From Thermoflexus hugenholtzii JAD2 (GTDB lineage: Bacteria > Chloroflexota > Anaerolineae > Thermoflexales > Thermoflexaceae), in contig NZ_FYEK01000028.1 of the NCBI RefSeq assembly GCF_900187885.1, positions 62,001-126,000 on the forward strand: 64,000 nucleotides of DNA, given 5' to 3'. The translations under genes were made by a program, and so were the position numbers. The notes beneath the pieces were generated by a model, which saw only the letters and a program-made list of their open reading frames with translations, had not been told where the DNA came from and did not search any database. Every line of letters starts with the position of its first letter. The first letter of the stretch is position 1. This document shows, one piece after another, positions 23,225 to 49,166 of this stretch.

Positions 23225-23824
23225 TCATTGCACAGCACAGCACGAATCATCCGCGGGGATCTCCGCGGCGGCCGCCTCGGCCTCGGCCCGAAGGACCGGA
23301 GGGAGATCCGCGGCCATGGCCAGCCCCTTGCGCAGGACAGCCTGCACATGGTCCCCACAACAGCGTCCGGAGGGATTCCGGATGTGGCACTCCGTCCCCG
23401 TGCGGGCCTTCGTATAAGCCTGGATGTCTTTGATGGAATCACAGCAGCGCTTAACCACGATCTCATAGAGGATGGTCTGCTCATCCACTCTCTTGCAGTA
23501 ACAGACCGGGATCGGCGTCTCGAGACGCTTGATCCCCACCGGGACCTGTACGTCCTCCAGGGCGAAGTAAAGGCCCTCCCCGTTGTGGAAGTACACGATG
23601 GGACAGGTCGGGGTCTCGCAGAAGTGAACACCCGCATCCCGGATCTTGTCGAAGTGCTCGCCTCGGACCATCCGCTCCAGCGTCCAGCGCCGGATCCGGA
23701 AGGGGAACCGCCCCCCGCAGACCGGGCACATCGCTTCCGCCTGCGCAGGGTCCTGAGCCGTCAAGGCGGCATACACCGGATCCACCGGTAACAGCCGGCC
23801 GGAGACCGTGGTGAGATACGCCAT
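23225..23824 (-). CDS. CopZ-like iron-sulfur/zinc metallochaperone
   Basis: 199 residues, last gene of the mer-linked operon. An N-terminal zinc-ribbon CPVCGGRFPF (residue 33) pairs with CETPTCPIVYF; then comes CYCKRVDEQTILYEIV, and CHIRNPSGRCCGDHVQ in the BFD-like part. This is the pattern of the N-terminal domain of Archaeoglobus CopZ, which binds zinc and a 2Fe-2S cluster. The HMA copper domain usually fused to it is absent; the sequence ends in DDSCCAVQ. A role in metal delivery or reduction is likely; mercury is inferred only from the operon. Confidence 0.72.
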   Translation of the reverse strand: MAYLTTVSGRLLPVDPVYAALTAQDPAQAEAMCPVCGGRFPFRIRRWTLERMVRGEHFDKIRDAGVHFCETPTCPIVYFHNGEGLYFALEDVQVPVGIKRLETPIPVCYCKRVDEQTILYEIVVKRCCDSIKDIQAYTKARTGTECHIRNPSGRCCGDHVQAVLRKGLAMAADLPPVLRAEAEAAAAEIPADDSCCAVQ

Positions 23825-23884: not shown

Positions 23885-24364
23885 TCAAGGCCCCTCCGGG
23901 ATGAGCTCCAGCTCGGTGGTGATGGCCACGCAGTTCCCGATCGTCCGCGCGACCGGACAGTAACGGGCATGGAAACCATGGACGCGGCGAGCGGTCTCCA
24001 TCTGGGAGGGAGCGATCCGCAGACGATAGGTCACGTGGATCCTCCGCAAGACCAGGACGTTGTCTTCCTTTTCAACCTCCCCCACCGCTTCGGCGATCAG
24101 CCGGCCTTCCCCTGCCGGGATCCCGCGCGCTTCCAGCGCGCCACCCAAGGTCCCGGTGAGTCAGCCTGCCGCCGCCGCAACCAGATCATCCAGCGTGGTG
24201 GCATGGGGCTCATGGGCGTGAGGATCCACGCCATAATGCCGGGCGACTTCGGTGTGAACTCCGAAAAAGATAGGCTGAGGTTCGATGGGGAGAAACGCCC
24301 GCCGCAAGGGGCCCTTCACTCGCTCAACCCGCACGCGGGATCGATACACCACGGCCTCGCTCAT
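23885..24364 (-). CDS. OsmC-family protein with in-frame TGA at the reactive cysteine: candidate selenoprotein
   Basis: 159 codons plus stop, if the TGA at 24161-24163 (codon 68) is read through. Both sides are in one frame. The segment before the TGA (TTLDDLVAAAAG) and after it (LTGTLGGALEARG) align with the paralogue at 48669 (MELVLVALAG-C-TAMDVLSILRKK), so the TGA takes the place of the peroxidatic Cys of OsmC/Ohr proteins. The second Cys is kept (HARYCPVA, residue 136; paralogue KYCSVS). A hairpin starts 19 bases after the TGA. OsmC-like selenoproteins are known. The alternative is a nonsense mutation. It lies 12 bases after ccdA. sel genes are not in the window. Confidence 0.7.
24125..24141 (-). 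promoter_or_regulatory. SECIS-like hairpin after the TGA codon
   Basis: On the minus strand GCGCGC, loop UGGAA, GCGCGC: a 6-bp GC-only stem whose loop holds two guanines. The loop begins 25 bases after the TGA, inside the 16-37 base range given for bacterial SECIS elements. The short stem means that it could also arise by chance in this GC-rich DNA. Confidence 0.5.
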
Positions 24365-24376
24365 GGCGGCCTCTGA

Positions 24377-25045
24377 TCAAAGAAAGATACGTCCCCAATA
24401 GTAAATCAGATAGAGCCCGGCCCCCAGCAGGAGCAGGACCCCAGCCGTCTCCACGGCGGCGGCCAGACGGCGGAGCCCCCGGGCCAGGGGACGCCCAGCG
24501 AGGGCCAGGGCCATGGAGAGGGCGACGAGCACCACCCCCATCCCCAGCCCATATAACAGGACCAAGAGGAGCGCCTCCCCCCCGCTCTGCCGGGCCACCG
24601 AGAACCCCACCAGGGCGAGGAACAGCGGCAACGTGCACCCCAGGGAAGCGAGGCCATACGCCAACCCGAAGCCGAACCAGGTCCATCGGGAAGGGCGCTC
24701 CCCCGCGCGGACTTCCAAAGGGATCCCGAGGAGGAGCCAGGGCCGGCCGGCGAGCCGGGAGAGGGCGAGAAGGACCAGGATCCCACCGACCCCCAGGCCC
24801 AGGAAAGGGGACCAGCGGGTGAGGGTTCTCAGGCCCATCGCCAGGGCGAACCCCGCCGCCACAAACAAACCGGTGCAGCCGGCCGCCATCGCCAGCCCCA
24901 TCCCGACGGCGTCCCGCACCGAAAGACGCCCTCCCGTCCGCGCCAGGGCGTAACCCACATAAGCCGGCAGCACCGCCAGGCCGCATGGATTGACCGTGGC
25001 CATCATCCCGGTCATCACCGCATAGAAGGCCAGGGCAAGATCCAT
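24377..25045 (-). CDS. ccdA: CcdA-type thiol-disulfide transmembrane electron carrier
   Basis: 222 residues with six predicted membrane helices. The two redox cysteines are in TVNPCGLAVLPAYVGY (helix 1, residue 21) and SLGCTLPLFLAL (helix 4), which is the CcdA/DsbD-gamma pattern. CcdA passes reducing equivalents from cytoplasmic thioredoxin across the membrane. Directly upstream is a TlpA-like lipoprotein, its probable partner, so the two would keep extracytoplasmic thiols reduced. In this operon those thiols would be on mercury-binding proteins. Spacing to TlpA is 29 bases. Confidence 0.87.
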   Translation of the reverse strand: MDLALAFYAVMTGMMATVNPCGLAVLPAYVGYALARTGGRLSVRDAVGMGLAMAAGCTGLFVAAGFALAMGLRTLTRWSPFLGLGVGGILVLLALSRLAGRPWLLLGIPLEVRAGERPSRWTWFGFGLAYGLASLGCTLPLFLALVGFSVARQSGGEALLLVLLYGLGMGVVLVALSMALALAGRPLARGLRRLAAAVETAGVLLLLGAGLYLIYYWGRIFL

Positions 25046-25074: not shown

Positions 25075-25587
25075 CTAACGGGAGGCGGGCGGGAGGATCC
25101 GCGCCATCTGGGTGGCCAGCGTCTCATACGACGTCGGAACCTCGTCCCGGAAGACGATCCGACCTTGCGGATCGATGATCACCGTGGTGTCCAACCGGGT
25201 TACCCGGTAGGCGAGGGCCACCGTGTTGTCTCGATCGAAGGCCCATATGTAATCCGGGTTCCCGGCCGCTTCGCGAAAAGCCGCCAGGTCCTCCGGGGTG
25301 CTGGTGGGGTCCACATCCAGGGCCACGATCACTGCCTGATCCCCATAGTGCGCATGGAGACGGGCCAGCGCCCGGGCCTCCGGGACACAGGTGCCGCACC
25401 AGTAGGCCATAAAGAAGAGCACCACCGGCTTGCCCTCGCCCAGGGCCTGCGAAAGCGTGAACGTCCTCCCTTCCAGGGTGGGCACGCTGAAATCCGGCGC
25501 CGGAGCTCCACCTCCCCCCAGCCCCGCGCAGCCTGCGAGCACGAGCCCGATCCCCAGCCAGACTCCCCACCGCCGCAGCGCCTTCAC
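25075..25587 (-). CDS. TlpA-like thioredoxin-fold lipoprotein
   Basis: 170 residues from a GTG at 25587 that overlaps the preceding stop (GTGA). A signal with lipobox (GIGLVLAGCAG, Cys near residue 18) anchors it outside the membrane. The AhpC/TSA-like fold carries the redox motif FMAYWCGTCVPEAR (CxxC near residue 68). The cis-Pro region is RLDTTVIIDPQG. It reduces disulfides and is itself reduced by CcdA. A longer ATG start upstream would remove the lipobox and is rejected. Confidence 0.85.
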   Translation of the reverse strand: MKALRRWGVWLGIGLVLAGCAGLGGGGAPAPDFSVPTLEGRTFTLSQALGEGKPVVLFFMAYWCGTCVPEARALARLHAHYGDQAVIVALDVDPTSTPEDLAAFREAAGNPDYIWAFDRDNTVALAYRVTRLDTTVIIDPQGRIVFRDEVPTSYETLATQMARILPPASR

Positions 25588-26009
25588 GGGCTCACCTCCA
25601 GCCCCTGCAACGCGAAGAGCACCGGGAGGTCCTCGGCCGAGAGAACGCCCGGATCGTAGTCCACGATCAGGCGGTCTCCCTCCAGATGGATCGCCCGGAT
25701 CCCCGGCATGCCCTCCAGCGAGGCGATCACCTCCAGGAGCGGGCGCGGGGGACAGCATGGGGAGGGGATCGTCCGAAAGGTGGTGTAGATCTGACGTGCT
25801 GCCCGCTCGGGCGTTGCCGTCGCCAGGGGCTCAGTGGACTGGGGCAACGAGCGCCCCTCCCGCTCCGGAGGTGGAGTCGGCGCAGAGGCCGGAGCCACCG
25901 TCCCCCGTGGGAGGGCCGAAGGGACCTCCGGCGGGGCGGGGGGCGCAGCGCAGGCGGTCCAGAACAGCATCGCCGCCAGCAGGAGAACATGCCATCGATT
26001 CTGTATCAT
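25584..26009 (-). CDS. Lipoprotein with C-terminal HMA-like domain
   Basis: 141 residues from the ATG at 26009, which overlaps the merE stop (ATGA). Signal peptide LLLAAMLFWTACAAP with lipobox Cys near 18, a Pro/Ser/Thr-rich linker (25-70), then about 65 residues with the beta-alpha-beta-beta pattern of heavy-metal-associated domains: LLEVIASLEGMPGIRAIHL and DRLIVDYDPGVLSAEDLPV. In place of GMTCxxC it has SPCCPPRP. Position after merE suggests a MerP-like role in catching Hg(II) outside the membrane; this is inference. Confidence 0.65.
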   Translation of the reverse strand: MIQNRWHVLLLAAMLFWTACAAPPAPPEVPSALPRGTVAPASAPTPPPEREGRSLPQSTEPLATATPERAARQIYTTFRTIPSPCCPPRPLLEVIASLEGMPGIRAIHLEGDRLIVDYDPGVLSAEDLPVLFALQGLEVSP

Positions 26010-26275
26010 CGCCGGGACCTCCTGGAAGCGGCGGGATGAGCGGCTGCACGGCCGGATCCCTGGCGGCCCTCGGATCCGGCTGCCGCCAGCGCCAGCCCGA
26101 CCAGGAAGAGCGCCGTCGAGGCCGCCACCAGGACCTCCAGATGCGTCGAGAGATAGGCTCCCAGGGTCGTCCCGGCCAGCAGGCTCAGAAGCAGAGGGGC
26201 CGTCACCGGCAGATGGCATGGACAGGTCACCAGCGCCAGAGCCAGTCCCACGCCCTGGCGAAGATGCTTGAGCAT
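26006..26275 (-). CDS. merE: MerE-like mercury transport protein
   Basis: 89 residues from the ATG at 26275 (MLKHLRQGVG), with AGAGAGGAGG upstream. Two membrane helices. The first contains TCPCHLPVTAPLLLSLLAGT, which matches the CPCHLP motif of MerE; MerE moves Hg(II) and methylmercury inward. The second helix is EVLVAASTALFLVGLALA. A Ser/Arg/Ala-rich tail follows. The gene overlaps the HMA lipoprotein by 4 bases. Confidence 0.78.
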   Translation of the reverse strand: MLKHLRQGVGLALALVTCPCHLPVTAPLLLSLLAGTTLGAYLSTHLEVLVAASTALFLVGLALAAAGSEGRQGSGRAAAHPAASRRSRR

Positions 26276-26292: not shown

Positions 26293-26514
26293 TCAGCAGC
26301 AACCGCCTCCTCCGGATTCCCCCGGACCCCTCAGGGCGCGCCACAGCCGCTGCCAGAACCCGGGATGGGTGCGCGGATACCGCTCCGCGTGCCACGGATG
26401 GCAAAACGCCTTCCCATGGGCGAAGACCGGGGTCCCCTCAATCGGAGCTCCGCACTCCGCGCAGCGAAGCGACGTTTTTCCCATCTTCCGATCCGCTCCA
26501 GCCTCCTGTTCCAT
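26293..26514 (-). CDS. Small Cys/His-rich protein of the mer operon
   Basis: 73 residues. A treble-clef-like metal site is visible as LRCAECGAPIEGTPVF (C-x2-C) followed by KAFCHPWHAERYP (C, H, H). The protein ends in GESGGGGCC, a flexible glycine run with a terminal vicinal cysteine pair. No family name can be given. The end resembles the C-terminal Cys pair of MerA (SCCAG), so it may carry or hand over a thiophilic metal. It lies 10 bases after merB and 17 before merE. Confidence 0.6.
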   Translation of the reverse strand: MEQEAGADRKMGKTSLRCAECGAPIEGTPVFAHGKAFCHPWHAERYPRTHPGFWQRLWRALRGPGESGGGGCC

Positions 26515-26524
26515 CCCTGCCTCC

Positions 26525-27199
26525 TCAGAGATCGGGATCGGGGATCGCCGCGCAGCAACCGATCCCCCCTTCCCATTGCAAATAGGGCCCCAATCGTCGC
26601 GCTAGATGAAAGGCCTCCGGGAGAGAGAGCAACGCCAGGACCGGATCCCAGGGACCGCCGGGTTGGAACAGGCGCGGCGAGGCGAGAAAAACCGTTCGCT
26701 GACAGAACGCCGCCCGGATGCCCGCTCCAGGCCCGGGGGCCGCCAGGACCAAGACGGCTTCCACCGGCTCGATCTCCCGGATCCCCGCGGGGGAGATCGT
26801 GAAACGGATGGGCTGTCCGGTCCGTGCGCACGAGGCCTCCACCTGGGCCTCCCGCTGCAGGCAGAGCGGGAAGAGCAATGTGTCCAGCGCGCACCAAGTC
26901 CAGAGGGACCGTCCCTCCCACTCCAGGCGGAACGGCGTAGGGCGGAGGGTAAGGCCCCAGCCGATCAGCCGCCCGGCCTCATCCCATTCGACCGCCGGAT
27001 CTCCCTGAAGGGCCCCGCGGACGGCCTCCTCGGGCTATCCGACCGCCTCGGCCAGGCGATCCAGGGGGACCGGCTCCCCGCGGGCGAGCAGCCGCAATGC
27101 CGCCTCAAACAGCGGCCCGCGGTCCAGGGCCCATCCACGGCCGCTCAGCTCCAGCATCAGCCGATGGGCCAGATGCTCCGGATCCAGGGTTTCCGCCAT
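26525..27199 (-). pseudogene. merB: Alkylmercury lyase, interrupted by an amber codon
   Basis: One frame from the ATG at 27199 to 26525 (224 sense codons), broken only by TAG at 27035-27037 (codon 55). MerB cleaves the C-Hg bond of organomercurials. The catalytic residues are intact after the stop: WTWCALDTLLFP (C103, D106) and RAAFCQRTVF (C166), matching C96, D99, C159 of plasmid MerB. By alignment with the plasmid sequence from memory (ILDWPAERV), the TAG stands for Trp, a single TGG to TAG change. No ATG or GTG lies between the TAG and C103, so restart would not give an active enzyme. Suppression, recent decay or a base error are possible. Confidence 0.8.
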
Positions 27200-27208
27200 G
27201 GGGCCCTC

Positions 27209-28861
27209 CTATCCCGCGCAGCAGCTCAACCGGGCTACATCCCGCGTGAAGGACTGGGCGCCCAACCGCAGGCCCTCCGCCCAGGTGAGATACGGGAAGA
27301 GGGTGCGGCCGAGATCCTGAGCGGTATATCCGGCCTGGAGGGCGATCACGCCGGCGGCGATGGCCTCCCCGGCCTGGGGCATCGCGAGATGGATGCCCAG
27401 CAGCCGGTCGGTGTTCGCATCGGCCACCAGCTTGATCACCCCGCGGGTCTCGAAGGCGATGCGCGCCCGGGGCACCGCCTCCAGCGGGAGCAGAACAGCC
27501 TTCGGCGTCTCCCCCCGTTCCCGGGCCTGCGCCTCCGTCCATCCCACCGAAGCCACCTCCGGATCGGTGAAGGTGACCCGAGGGACAACGCTCAGGTCCA
27601 GCGTCCGGTGATTGCCCAGCAGGGCGTTCTCCGCCGCCACCGTCCCGCTGGCCGCGGCCACATAGACGAACATGGGTAGGTCGGCGCAATCGCCGGCGGC
27701 GTAGATCGAGGGGTTCGAGGTTTGCATATAGGGGTTGACCCGGATCTCCCCCCTCGGCCCCACCGCCACCCCGACCGCCTCCAGCCCCAGGTCCTGGGTG
27801 TTCGGGCGGCGGCCGGTGGCTATCAACAGCTGCTCCGCAGAGACGATGCGGGTTTCCCCGTCTTTCTCGAAAGACACCTCATAGCGGCCGTCGGATCGAG
27901 CGGCCCGGATGATCTTCACGCCGGTGTGGAAGGCCATGCCCTCTTCCTCCAGGGCGCGCTGCAACGCCTCGCTGATCTCCGGCTCCTCGAAGGGGACGAT
28001 GCGGGGGAGGGCCTCGAGGACCGTCACCGCGACGCCGGCGCGGGCGAAGACCTGGGCCAGCTCCAGCCCCACCGCGTTGGCGCCGACCACGATCATGGAG
28101 CGAGGCAGCTCCCGCAGGGAGAGGGCCTCGGTGCTGGTGAGATAGCCCGCTTCGGCCAGGCCTGGGATGGGCGGAGCCCACGGCCGCGCGCCGGTGGCCA
28201 GGATCACCCGGCCCGGGGCGTAGGTGATGCCGTTCACCACCACCGCTCCGCCCTCCGTCAGGCGGGCTCGACCCTGGATCCGCGTGATTTGGGGATAGGC
28301 GGCCAGGACCTCCTCATATTTCTCCCGGCGCATAGCCGCGATGAGGGCCTCCTTCTGAGCGATCAGCTCTGCCCAGTTCAGCGCCCCCCGGGCGGTGCTC
28401 ACCCCCCGGAAGCCATGGGCGCCCGCCCGATGGTAGACCTCCAGGGCGCGGATCAGGAACTTCGACGGAACGCAGCCCACGTTCACGCAGGTCCCGCCCA
28501 GGGTCCCTGCCTCCACGAGGGCCACGCGGGCGCCCAGCTCGGCGGCGCGGATGGCCGCGGCGAAGGCCGCCGATCCCCCGCCGATGATCAGGAGATCGAA
28601 CCGGCCATCGCCCCGCGGGGCTGCGGGAGCCTCCGGGAGCTCCGCCCGGACCACCCGGGCCCGATAGCCGGCGCGGGCGACGGCCTCCTCCATGGCGGAA
28701 TCGGGGACCTCTCCCTCCACGATGGCCTCGGCCTTCCCGGAGGACCAGTGAGGGACCCGGGCGGAGAGCACCCCGGGCACCGCGCGGAGCGCCCGCTCCA
28801 CGTGCCGGGCGCAATCGTCACACGTCATCCCCTGCACCTCCAGCTCCACGCGAACCAGCAT
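27209..28861 (-). CDS. merA: Mercuric reductase with N-terminal HMA domain
   Basis: 550 residues. Residues 1-70 are a MerP-like HMA domain with GMTCDDCARHVE. The flavoprotein disulfide reductase part begins with LLIIGGGSAAFAAAIRAAEL; the redox pair is in GGTCVNVGCVPSKFLI (C-x4-C). NAD(P)H and dimer domains follow (YAAGDCADLP; LPLEAVPRARIAFETRGVIK). The last residues LSCCAG are the C-terminal Cys pair that receives Hg(II) from the partner subunit. It reduces Hg(II) to Hg(0) in the cytoplasm and is first in the operon, 10 bases before merB. No merR or arsR gene is adjacent. Confidence 0.96.
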   Translation of the reverse strand: MLVRVELEVQGMTCDDCARHVERALRAVPGVLSARVPHWSSGKAEAIVEGEVPDSAMEEAVARAGYRARVVRAELPEAPAAPRGDGRFDLLIIGGGSAAFAAAIRAAELGARVALVEAGTLGGTCVNVGCVPSKFLIRALEVYHRAGAHGFRGVSTARGALNWAELIAQKEALIAAMRREKYEEVLAAYPQITRIQGRARLTEGGAVVVNGITYAPGRVILATGARPWAPPIPGLAEAGYLTSTEALSLRELPRSMIVVGANAVGLELAQVFARAGVAVTVLEALPRIVPFEEPEISEALQRALEEEGMAFHTGVKIIRAARSDGRYEVSFEKDGETRIVSAEQLLIATGRRPNTQDLGLEAVGVAVGPRGEIRVNPYMQTSNPSIYAAGDCADLPMFVYVAAASGTVAAENALLGNHRTLDLSVVPRVTFTDPEVASVGWTEAQARERGETPKAVLLPLEAVPRARIAFETRGVIKLVADANTDRLLGIHLAMPQAGEAIAAGVIALQAGYTAQDLGRTLFPYLTWAEGLRLGAQSFTRDVARLSCCAG

Positions 28862-48000: not shown

Positions 48001-48052
48001 GGGATCCGCTGAGCCGGGGCCGGTGGCCCCGTTCGATCGTAAGGAGCATCCG

Positions 48053-48322
48053 ATGATCGATCTCCCTCCGGATGCGGAACAGCGCCTCATCCGCCGCCTC
48101 CGGCGTATCCAGGGGCAGGCCCGGGGGATCGAGCGGATGATCCAGGAGGGGCGGGATTGCCGGGAGGTGCTGGAGCAGCTGGCCGCCCTGCAGGCCGCCG
48201 CCCGCCAGGCCTTCCTGTTCGCCTCCCGGTCTTACCTTCAGGCATGCGCCCAGGAGGATCCGGCCCACGCGGTCCCCGCACTGCGCGACCTCCTGGAGGC
48301 CCTGAAACGGTTGCCCTCCTGA
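48053..48322 (+). CDS. CsoR-family repressor, CstR-like (Cys-Tyr-Cys)
   Basis: 89 residues, an all-helical DUF156 protein (LIRRLRRIQGQARGIERMIQ is the DNA-contact helix). Copper-sensing CsoR uses C36, H61 and C65; in this protein the same numbers are C36, Tyr61 and C65. Loss of the histidine with both cysteines kept is the pattern of CstR, which senses persulfides by forming a di- or trisulfide bridge. The OsmC protein two genes downstream and the rhodanese elsewhere in the window fit a sulfur theme. Confidence 0.8.
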   Translation: MIDLPPDAEQRLIRRLRRIQGQARGIERMIQEGRDCREVLEQLAALQAAARQAFLFASRSYLQACAQEDPAHAVPALRDLLEALKRLPS

Positions 48323-48345
48323 CCGATCCGGCTTCGAGGTCCTCC

Positions 48346-48609
48346 ATGGGGAACTACTGGTGGGAAGCAGAAGGCTCGCCATCGAAGCCTCGGGCGAAGA
48401 AGCGCCGCGCGTCCCAAGCGCTGGCCGAAGGCCCCTCCTTGACTTTCTCCCTGCACCCCCCGCAGGAAGCGGAGCAGGCCGTGGAGATCCACCGGGCAGG
48501 GGATCCCTGCCCCAACTGCGGGTTCGCCCGTCTGGAATACGATGGGTATTTCAACCTCCACTGCCCGATCTGCGGTTTCCGCACCGGCGCCCGCGGCGCC
48601 TGCACCTGA
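48346..48609 (+). CDS. Small zinc-ribbon protein
   Basis: 87 residues from the ATG at 48346. The first half is basic and without motif; the second half is a zinc ribbon CPNCGFARLEYDGYFNLHCP with a partner CPICGFR. The final residues are ARGACT. No known function. The start is uncertain as no strong ribosome-binding site is seen; downstream in-frame starts are possible. Confidence 0.6.
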   Translation: MGNYWWEAEGSPSKPRAKKRRASQALAEGPSLTFSLHPPQEAEQAVEIHRAGDPCPNCGFARLEYDGYFNLHCPICGFRTGARGACT

Positions 48610-48668
48610 TAACCGGACCCACCGGGGGCGGCGCCCCCGATCCCATCTGATCTGAGGAGGAGTCCTCA

Positions 48669-49166
48669 ATGGCCACCGAGATCCGTCTTGATCTGCTGGA
48701 CCCTCAAGGGATGAAAATGGAGGCCCGCACACCCAGCGGTCACGCGGTGATCATGGACGCGGCCCCGGACATCGGGGGGACCAATGAGGGGCCGCGGCCG
48801 ATGGAGCTGGTGCTGGTCGCCCTGGCCGGATGCACGGCCATGGACGTCCTCTCCATCCTCCGGAAGAAGCGCCAGCCCCTGGAAGGATTCGCCATGGAGG
48901 TGCGGGCCGAGCGCGCCCCGGAGCACCCCAAAGTTTACACGGACATCAATCTCCTCTATATCATCCGGGGGAACGTGGATCCTCAGGCGGTGGTTCGGGC
49001 GATCGAGCTCTCAGCCACCAAATATTGCTCGGTCAGCGCCATGCTCCGGAAGACTGCCCGAATCCGCTACCGCTACCGCATCGAGCCGACCGCGTCGGGG
49101 GCCTCGCCTGTCGAGGGCGAATATCGGATGGAAGAGGTCCCGGCCTCCGCCGGATCCACGGGCTGA
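48669..49166 (+). CDS. OsmC-family peroxidase-like protein
   Basis: 165 residues with GAGGAGGAG upstream of the ATG. The two redox cysteines are C55 in LVALAGCTAMDVLS and C120 in ATKYCSVSAML. OsmC/Ohr proteins reduce organic hydroperoxides and, in related cases, fatty-acid or sulfur hydroperoxides and persulfides, with this Cys pair. It is the standard Cys form and a useful comparison for the TGA-containing relative at 23885. Under the CstR-like repressor it may act on reactive sulfur species; that is inference. Confidence 0.88.
   Translation: MATEIRLDLLDPQGMKMEARTPSGHAVIMDAAPDIGGTNEGPRPMELVLVALAGCTAMDVLSILRKKRQPLEGFAMEVRAERAPEHPKVYTDINLLYIIRGNVDPQAVVRAIELSATKYCSVSAMLRKTARIRYRYRIEPTASGASPVEGEYRMEEVPASAGSTG

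Follow-up and report, generated by a model that had tools for sequence, protein, structure and literature searches.

The question raised by this locus is whether an in-frame TGA in an OsmC-type gene, lying inside a mercury (mer) operon of Thermoflexus hugenholtzii JAD2, encodes a catalytic selenocysteine or marks a gene in decay, and what a selenol protein would be doing beside merA. The window, that is, the whole stretch of 64,000 nucleotides analysed here (contig NZ_FYEK01000028.1, positions 62,001 to 126,000), contains the following features of the operon, given in window coordinates:

23225 to 23824, minus strand: CopZ-like zinc/[2Fe-2S] metallochaperone, a Cys-containing member of the Csac_0668 (seleno)protein family; the gene after osmC
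23885 to 24364, minus strand: predicted Sec-OsmC gene, 159 residues, Sec68, TGA terminator (reading frame and PF02566 match)
24125 to 24141, minus strand: SECIS-like hairpin GCGCGCTGGAAGCGCGC, located 19 nt past the TGA and carrying a G in its apical loop
24161 to 24163, minus strand: in-frame TGA, predicted selenocysteine 68, at the peroxidatic Cys position (alignment to 1UKK and homologues)
24377 to 25045, minus strand: DsbD/CcdA-type transmembrane thiol carrier, ending 12 nt before the osmC start (weak Pfam match, below cut-off)
25075 to 25590 (start approximate), minus strand: TlpA/ResA-like lipoprotein thioredoxin (WCGTC)
25584 to 26012, minus strand: small secreted HMA-like protein with a CC motif (HMA-like by eye only, no Pfam match)
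26006 to 26275, minus strand: MerE-like mercury transporter
26293 to 26514, minus strand: small Cys-rich protein (CAECGAPI...), kept in the sister operons (no Pfam match)
26525 to 27199, minus strand: merB, with TAG at codon 55 (27037-27035), which is TGG in the sister operons
27209 to 28861, minus strand: merA with an N-terminal HMA domain

The earlier note on this DNA had described a single frame broken solely by a TGA at codon 68, which our reading bears out and assigns to the minus strand: running from 24364 to 23885, it opens with ATG and comprises 67 codons, the TGA (24163-24161), 91 further codons and a terminal TGA. The read-through protein matches the Pfam OsmC domain (PF02566) with 44.9 bits against a cut-off of 27.5. 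As had been proposed, the TGA occupies the position of the peroxidatic Cys, codon 68 aligning with that residue in the Thermus thermophilus OsmC structure 1UKK, and the second redox Cys is retained, with C136 (CPVAR) aligning with the second Cys (CPVSR) of 1UKK; both catalytic positions, Sec68 and C136, are invariant across the aligned homologues. An AlphaFold model of the protein (pLDDT 94) superimposes on solved OsmC and OsmC-like structures with Z values of 13-15 and places residue 68 within a long central helix (residues 57-79). Domain, fold and the two catalytic positions (Cys/Sec) all place the protein in the OsmC/Ohr superfamily. The paralogue at 48669, offered by the earlier note as the Cys-containing counterpart, is indeed a Cys-containing OsmC protein but belongs to another subfamily (PRK10738/YhfA-like). 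A CsoR/RcnR-type metal repressor is encoded on the same strand about 350 nt upstream of this paralogue (window 48023-49166), an arrangement suggesting a metal-regulated OsmC.

Alignment of homologues, put forward in the earlier note as a check, revealed that TGA at codon 68 is far commoner among relatives than Cys. In a sample of 400 Chloroflexota genomes searched at E<=1e-10, homologues were found in 38 genomes at 40 places, 37 of which carry the in-frame TGA, and in the aligned set every one of the 42 TGA loci examined has it at codon 68. The exceptions are one TGC (L040, the only Cys orthologue seen, which our tree did not place relative to the Sec sequences), one TGG (L041) and one rearranged remnant (L090). 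The TGA copies form two groups, with 50-90% and 29-36% identity to the window protein, characterised by the motifs ULTG and UMYG/UMFG, respectively. The distant UMYG/UMFG clade (L085, L087-L089, L091 and relatives) occurs in other Chloroflexota families, and one genome (G279) carries two copies. On the evidence of this alignment, the recurrence of the same TGA codon across 42 loci is not a pattern of chance, and it is implausible that the TGAs represent assembly errors in some 40 genomes. Two of the exceptional loci show signs of disruption: in the TGG copy (L041; L077 7844-8256, genome G303) the N-terminal part lies in another frame and one hairpin pair is lost, so that it is apparently a decaying relative, and at L090 5477-8065 (genome G119) the OsmC remnants are split into pieces separated by about 2.2 kb, in one of which a stop stands where the Sec motif is expected, consistent with a rearranged or decayed Sec-OsmC.

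One alternative, which the earlier note had itself raised, is that the operon is decaying and that the OsmC TGA, like the TAG in merB, is a nonsense mutation in a pseudogene. The merB TAG was confirmed at codon 55 (27037-27035) and, as an in-frame stop in the same operon, would favour this reading; however, the same codon is TGG in both sister operons, each of which keeps the OsmC TGA, so the two stops differ in history. No stop was found elsewhere in the part of the sister merB covered. The merB TAG is therefore either a private change of this genome (a recent nonsense mutation) or an assembly error and, as far as these comparisons go, says nothing against selenocysteine in OsmC. Furthermore, in comparison with the copies of the two sister Thermoflexus genomes (84% and 89% identity; Candidatus Thermoflexus tengchongensis is an 89% identical neighbour of the window's genome), dN/dS is 0.06-0.09 before the TGA and 0.07-0.13 after it, and this purifying selection beyond the TGA means that the downstream sequence is translated. 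With the TGA conserved in about 40 genomes and selection persisting past it, the pseudogene reading was rejected, and we regard it as very improbable.

A second line of evidence comes from the RNA downstream of the TGA. The GC hairpin with a G-containing loop that had been noticed there holds up under comparison: GCGCGC arms enclose a UGGAA loop, the whole spanning 20-36 nt after the TGA, which agrees with the bacterial-type SECIS arrangement of a hairpin about 16-37 nt downstream with a G in the apical loop. Among the TGA loci the same helix can form at the same position, with at least six of the seven pairs in 39 of 42, and 287 of 294 possible pairs are formed in total, compared with 195.8±6.7 (maximum 219) in 2000 shuffles in which synonymous codons were drawn from the same gene. 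Across 41 distinct aligned sequences, 97.6% of hairpin cells pair. When the arms were slid to other registers, none came near the true register and the covariation was lost; that covariation consists of nine double-changed cells (GC to CG or AU), all at one helix pair only. The stem codons of the ULTG clade do not vary (GGC 27/27, GCG 29/29, CTG 29/29 and GCG 28/28), whereas conserved Ala, Gly and Leu residues outside the stem are mostly encoded by three or four synonymous codons. The hairpin of the UMYG/UMFG clade differs in sequence and still pairs, and the stem is broken in the TGC (L040) and TGG copies. It is this comparative evidence that carries weight, because folding of the single sequence does not reach significance by itself (z -1.5) and an Rfam search returned no matching SECIS family.

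The genome encodes the machinery that such decoding would require. The check for sel genes suggested at the outset found all four in the 3.2 Mb genome: tRNA-Sec (selC; 78 bits, and called by ARAGORN as tRNA-SeC with anticodon TCA), SelB, SelA (559 bits) and SelD (379 bits). SelA is present in nearly all sampled genomes with or without Sec-OsmC, and its presence does not discriminate. Among genomes carrying the gene, tRNA-Sec did not exceed the cut-off in two MAGs (G400 and G408), both of which have SelA, and one TGA-bearing genome (G095) is without a full SelA, yet has tRNA-Sec. The SelD gene (L093, G000:C12:58065-59000) is itself that of a TGA selenoprotein, with one in-frame TGA in the motif CAGUASKM, and is a second, internal case of Sec use in the same genome. 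These observations also bear on a reading in which UGA is decoded as Trp or another residue through an altered genetic code or general readthrough, with no involvement of selenium, for which the homologue with TGG at codon 68 might be cited. That copy, however, is frameshifted and looks decayed, the codon in question falls at the position of the catalytic Cys, and only the TGA copies have the intact hairpin. An altered code was rejected because TGA also terminates the Sec-OsmC gene itself and the full Sec pathway is encoded in the genome; we consider this reading scarcely credible.

Coding and selection past the UGA, the same codon in homologues, a SECIS-like hairpin and the sel genes, the features by which a bacterial selenoprotein is recognised, are thus found together, and selenocysteine at codon 68 of OsmC is established by comparison, not by experiment. 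We put at roughly 95% the probability of a combined reading in which the gene encodes an OsmC/Ohr selenoprotein decoded by SelB, tRNA-Sec and the hairpin, acting as a peroxidase and recruited into the Thermoflexus mer operon. On this reading, SelB and tRNA-Sec insert selenocysteine at the UGA of codon 68, guided by the hairpin that starts 20 nt downstream. By analogy with the OsmC/Ohr mechanism, we infer that the protein is a selenol peroxidase: reaction of the selenol with organic or fatty-acid hydroperoxides would lead to a selenenylsulfide between Sec68 and C136, and a cellular dithiol such as dihydrolipoamide may then re-reduce the enzyme.

In Thermoflexus, the order merA, merB, Cys-rich, merE, HMA-like, TlpA-like, CcdA-like, Sec-osmC, CopZ-like is co-directional with short gaps. 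The same order is found in genome G406, and in genome G400, whose contig starts inside merB, the remaining order is the same; both sisters carry about 1.1 kb extra between merB and the small Cys-rich gene. Sec-osmC can therefore be counted as a member of the mer operon, being co-directional with and adjoining mer genes in all three Thermoflexus genomes that have it. Sec-OsmC and MerB occur together in three of nine Thermoflexus genomes and are both missing from the other six, a count that covers one order as nine genomes of one genus, a small and related set in which some are incomplete. A search of PLSDB gave no match, and plasmid carriage is not supported. The CopZ-like gene after osmC has Cys here; elsewhere its Csac_0668 family is a selenoprotein.

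The earlier note had tied the selenol to mercury, and this holds in part: within Thermoflexus the gene and the mer operon go together, but elsewhere the gene occurs without mer genes. Outside Thermoflexus, no mer proteins were found near Sec-OsmC in flanks of up to about 8 kb (shorter at contig ends), and no conserved Sec-OsmC neighbourhood was found in other genera. A general linkage of Sec-OsmC with mer genes was rejected on these grounds, so mercury is not the ancestral role, and the selenoprotein occurs more widely than its association with mer genes. Within Thermoflexus, Sec-osmC would have been recruited into the mer operon, where it probably limits the peroxide and thiol stress caused by Hg(II). 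A protective role of this kind in the mer operon is plausible given findings in T. thermophilus, where exposure to Hg(II) leads to more reactive oxygen and to induction of osmC (PMC6445937). Direct binding of Hg by the putative selenol is possible, and a stronger version of this idea accepts Sec-OsmC as real but makes binding or transfer of Hg(II) or organomercury by the selenol, not peroxide reduction, its principal function in Thermoflexus. The strict co-occurrence with MerB and the operon position in Thermoflexus point that way, as do the metal-thiol character of the neighbouring proteins (CopZ-like, MerE, TlpA, CcdA) and the ties of other selenoproteins to mercury and organometal handling (PMC13188914). 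Nevertheless, both OsmC catalytic positions are kept, and orthologues elsewhere, without mer neighbours, retain Sec together with the resolving C136, as a redox enzyme would; we therefore consider mercury handling an unlikely main function and favour a peroxidase that serves the mer operon by relieving oxidative and thiol stress.

Selenoproteins of OsmC type have been reported since 2005, with the motif UxxT given in later surveys (PMC1088965, PMC2398784, PMC13188914). That OsmC-like family (Sargasso Sea/GOS; NF041052, OsmC_like_Se) likewise carries Sec within its redox motif and, downstream of the UGA, a bacterial SECIS, whereas the motif here is UxxG (ULTG or UMYG). A search with NF041052 gave no hit to the window protein at E<=0.01, and the related clades score 12-26 bits (the second, UMYG/UMFG clade 18-26) against a cut-off of 95, which leaves them outside that model. 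With OsmC peroxiredoxin (TIGR03562; T. thermophilus 1UKK, Escherichia coli 1NYE) the protein shares the fold and both catalytic positions, but Sec replaces the peroxidatic Cys and the TIGR03562 score is 23 against a cut-off of 85.8. Mercury-linked selenoproteins (MerT/MerP-like, SaoL, HgcA/B and CopZ-like Csac_0668; PMC13188914) also lie near mercury or organometal genes but belong to different families, with no OsmC among them, and the CopZ-like neighbour in the Thermoflexus operon has Cys where the Csac_0668-type selenoprotein has Sec. In the non-subscription literature we found no paper joining OsmC selenoproteins with Chloroflexota or with mercury. The ULTG/UMYG clade looks like an unrecognised subfamily of OsmC selenoproteins. 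A broader proposal, in which this UxxG subfamily is centred on Chloroflexota and its Thermoflexus branch is a dedicated selenol component of a mercury/organomercury detoxification operon, is tentative, and we give it slightly less than even odds.

Together this work adds what appears to be a well-supported and widespread selenoprotein subfamily that is missed by the NCBI OsmC selenoprotein model, and whose genes standard gene callers tend to truncate or drop. It also links a predicted selenol enzyme to a mer operon. Because selenols hold Hg(II) more tightly than thiols do, this linkage raises a testable question: whether mercury would poison such an enzyme, or whether mercury is resisted or handled by it.
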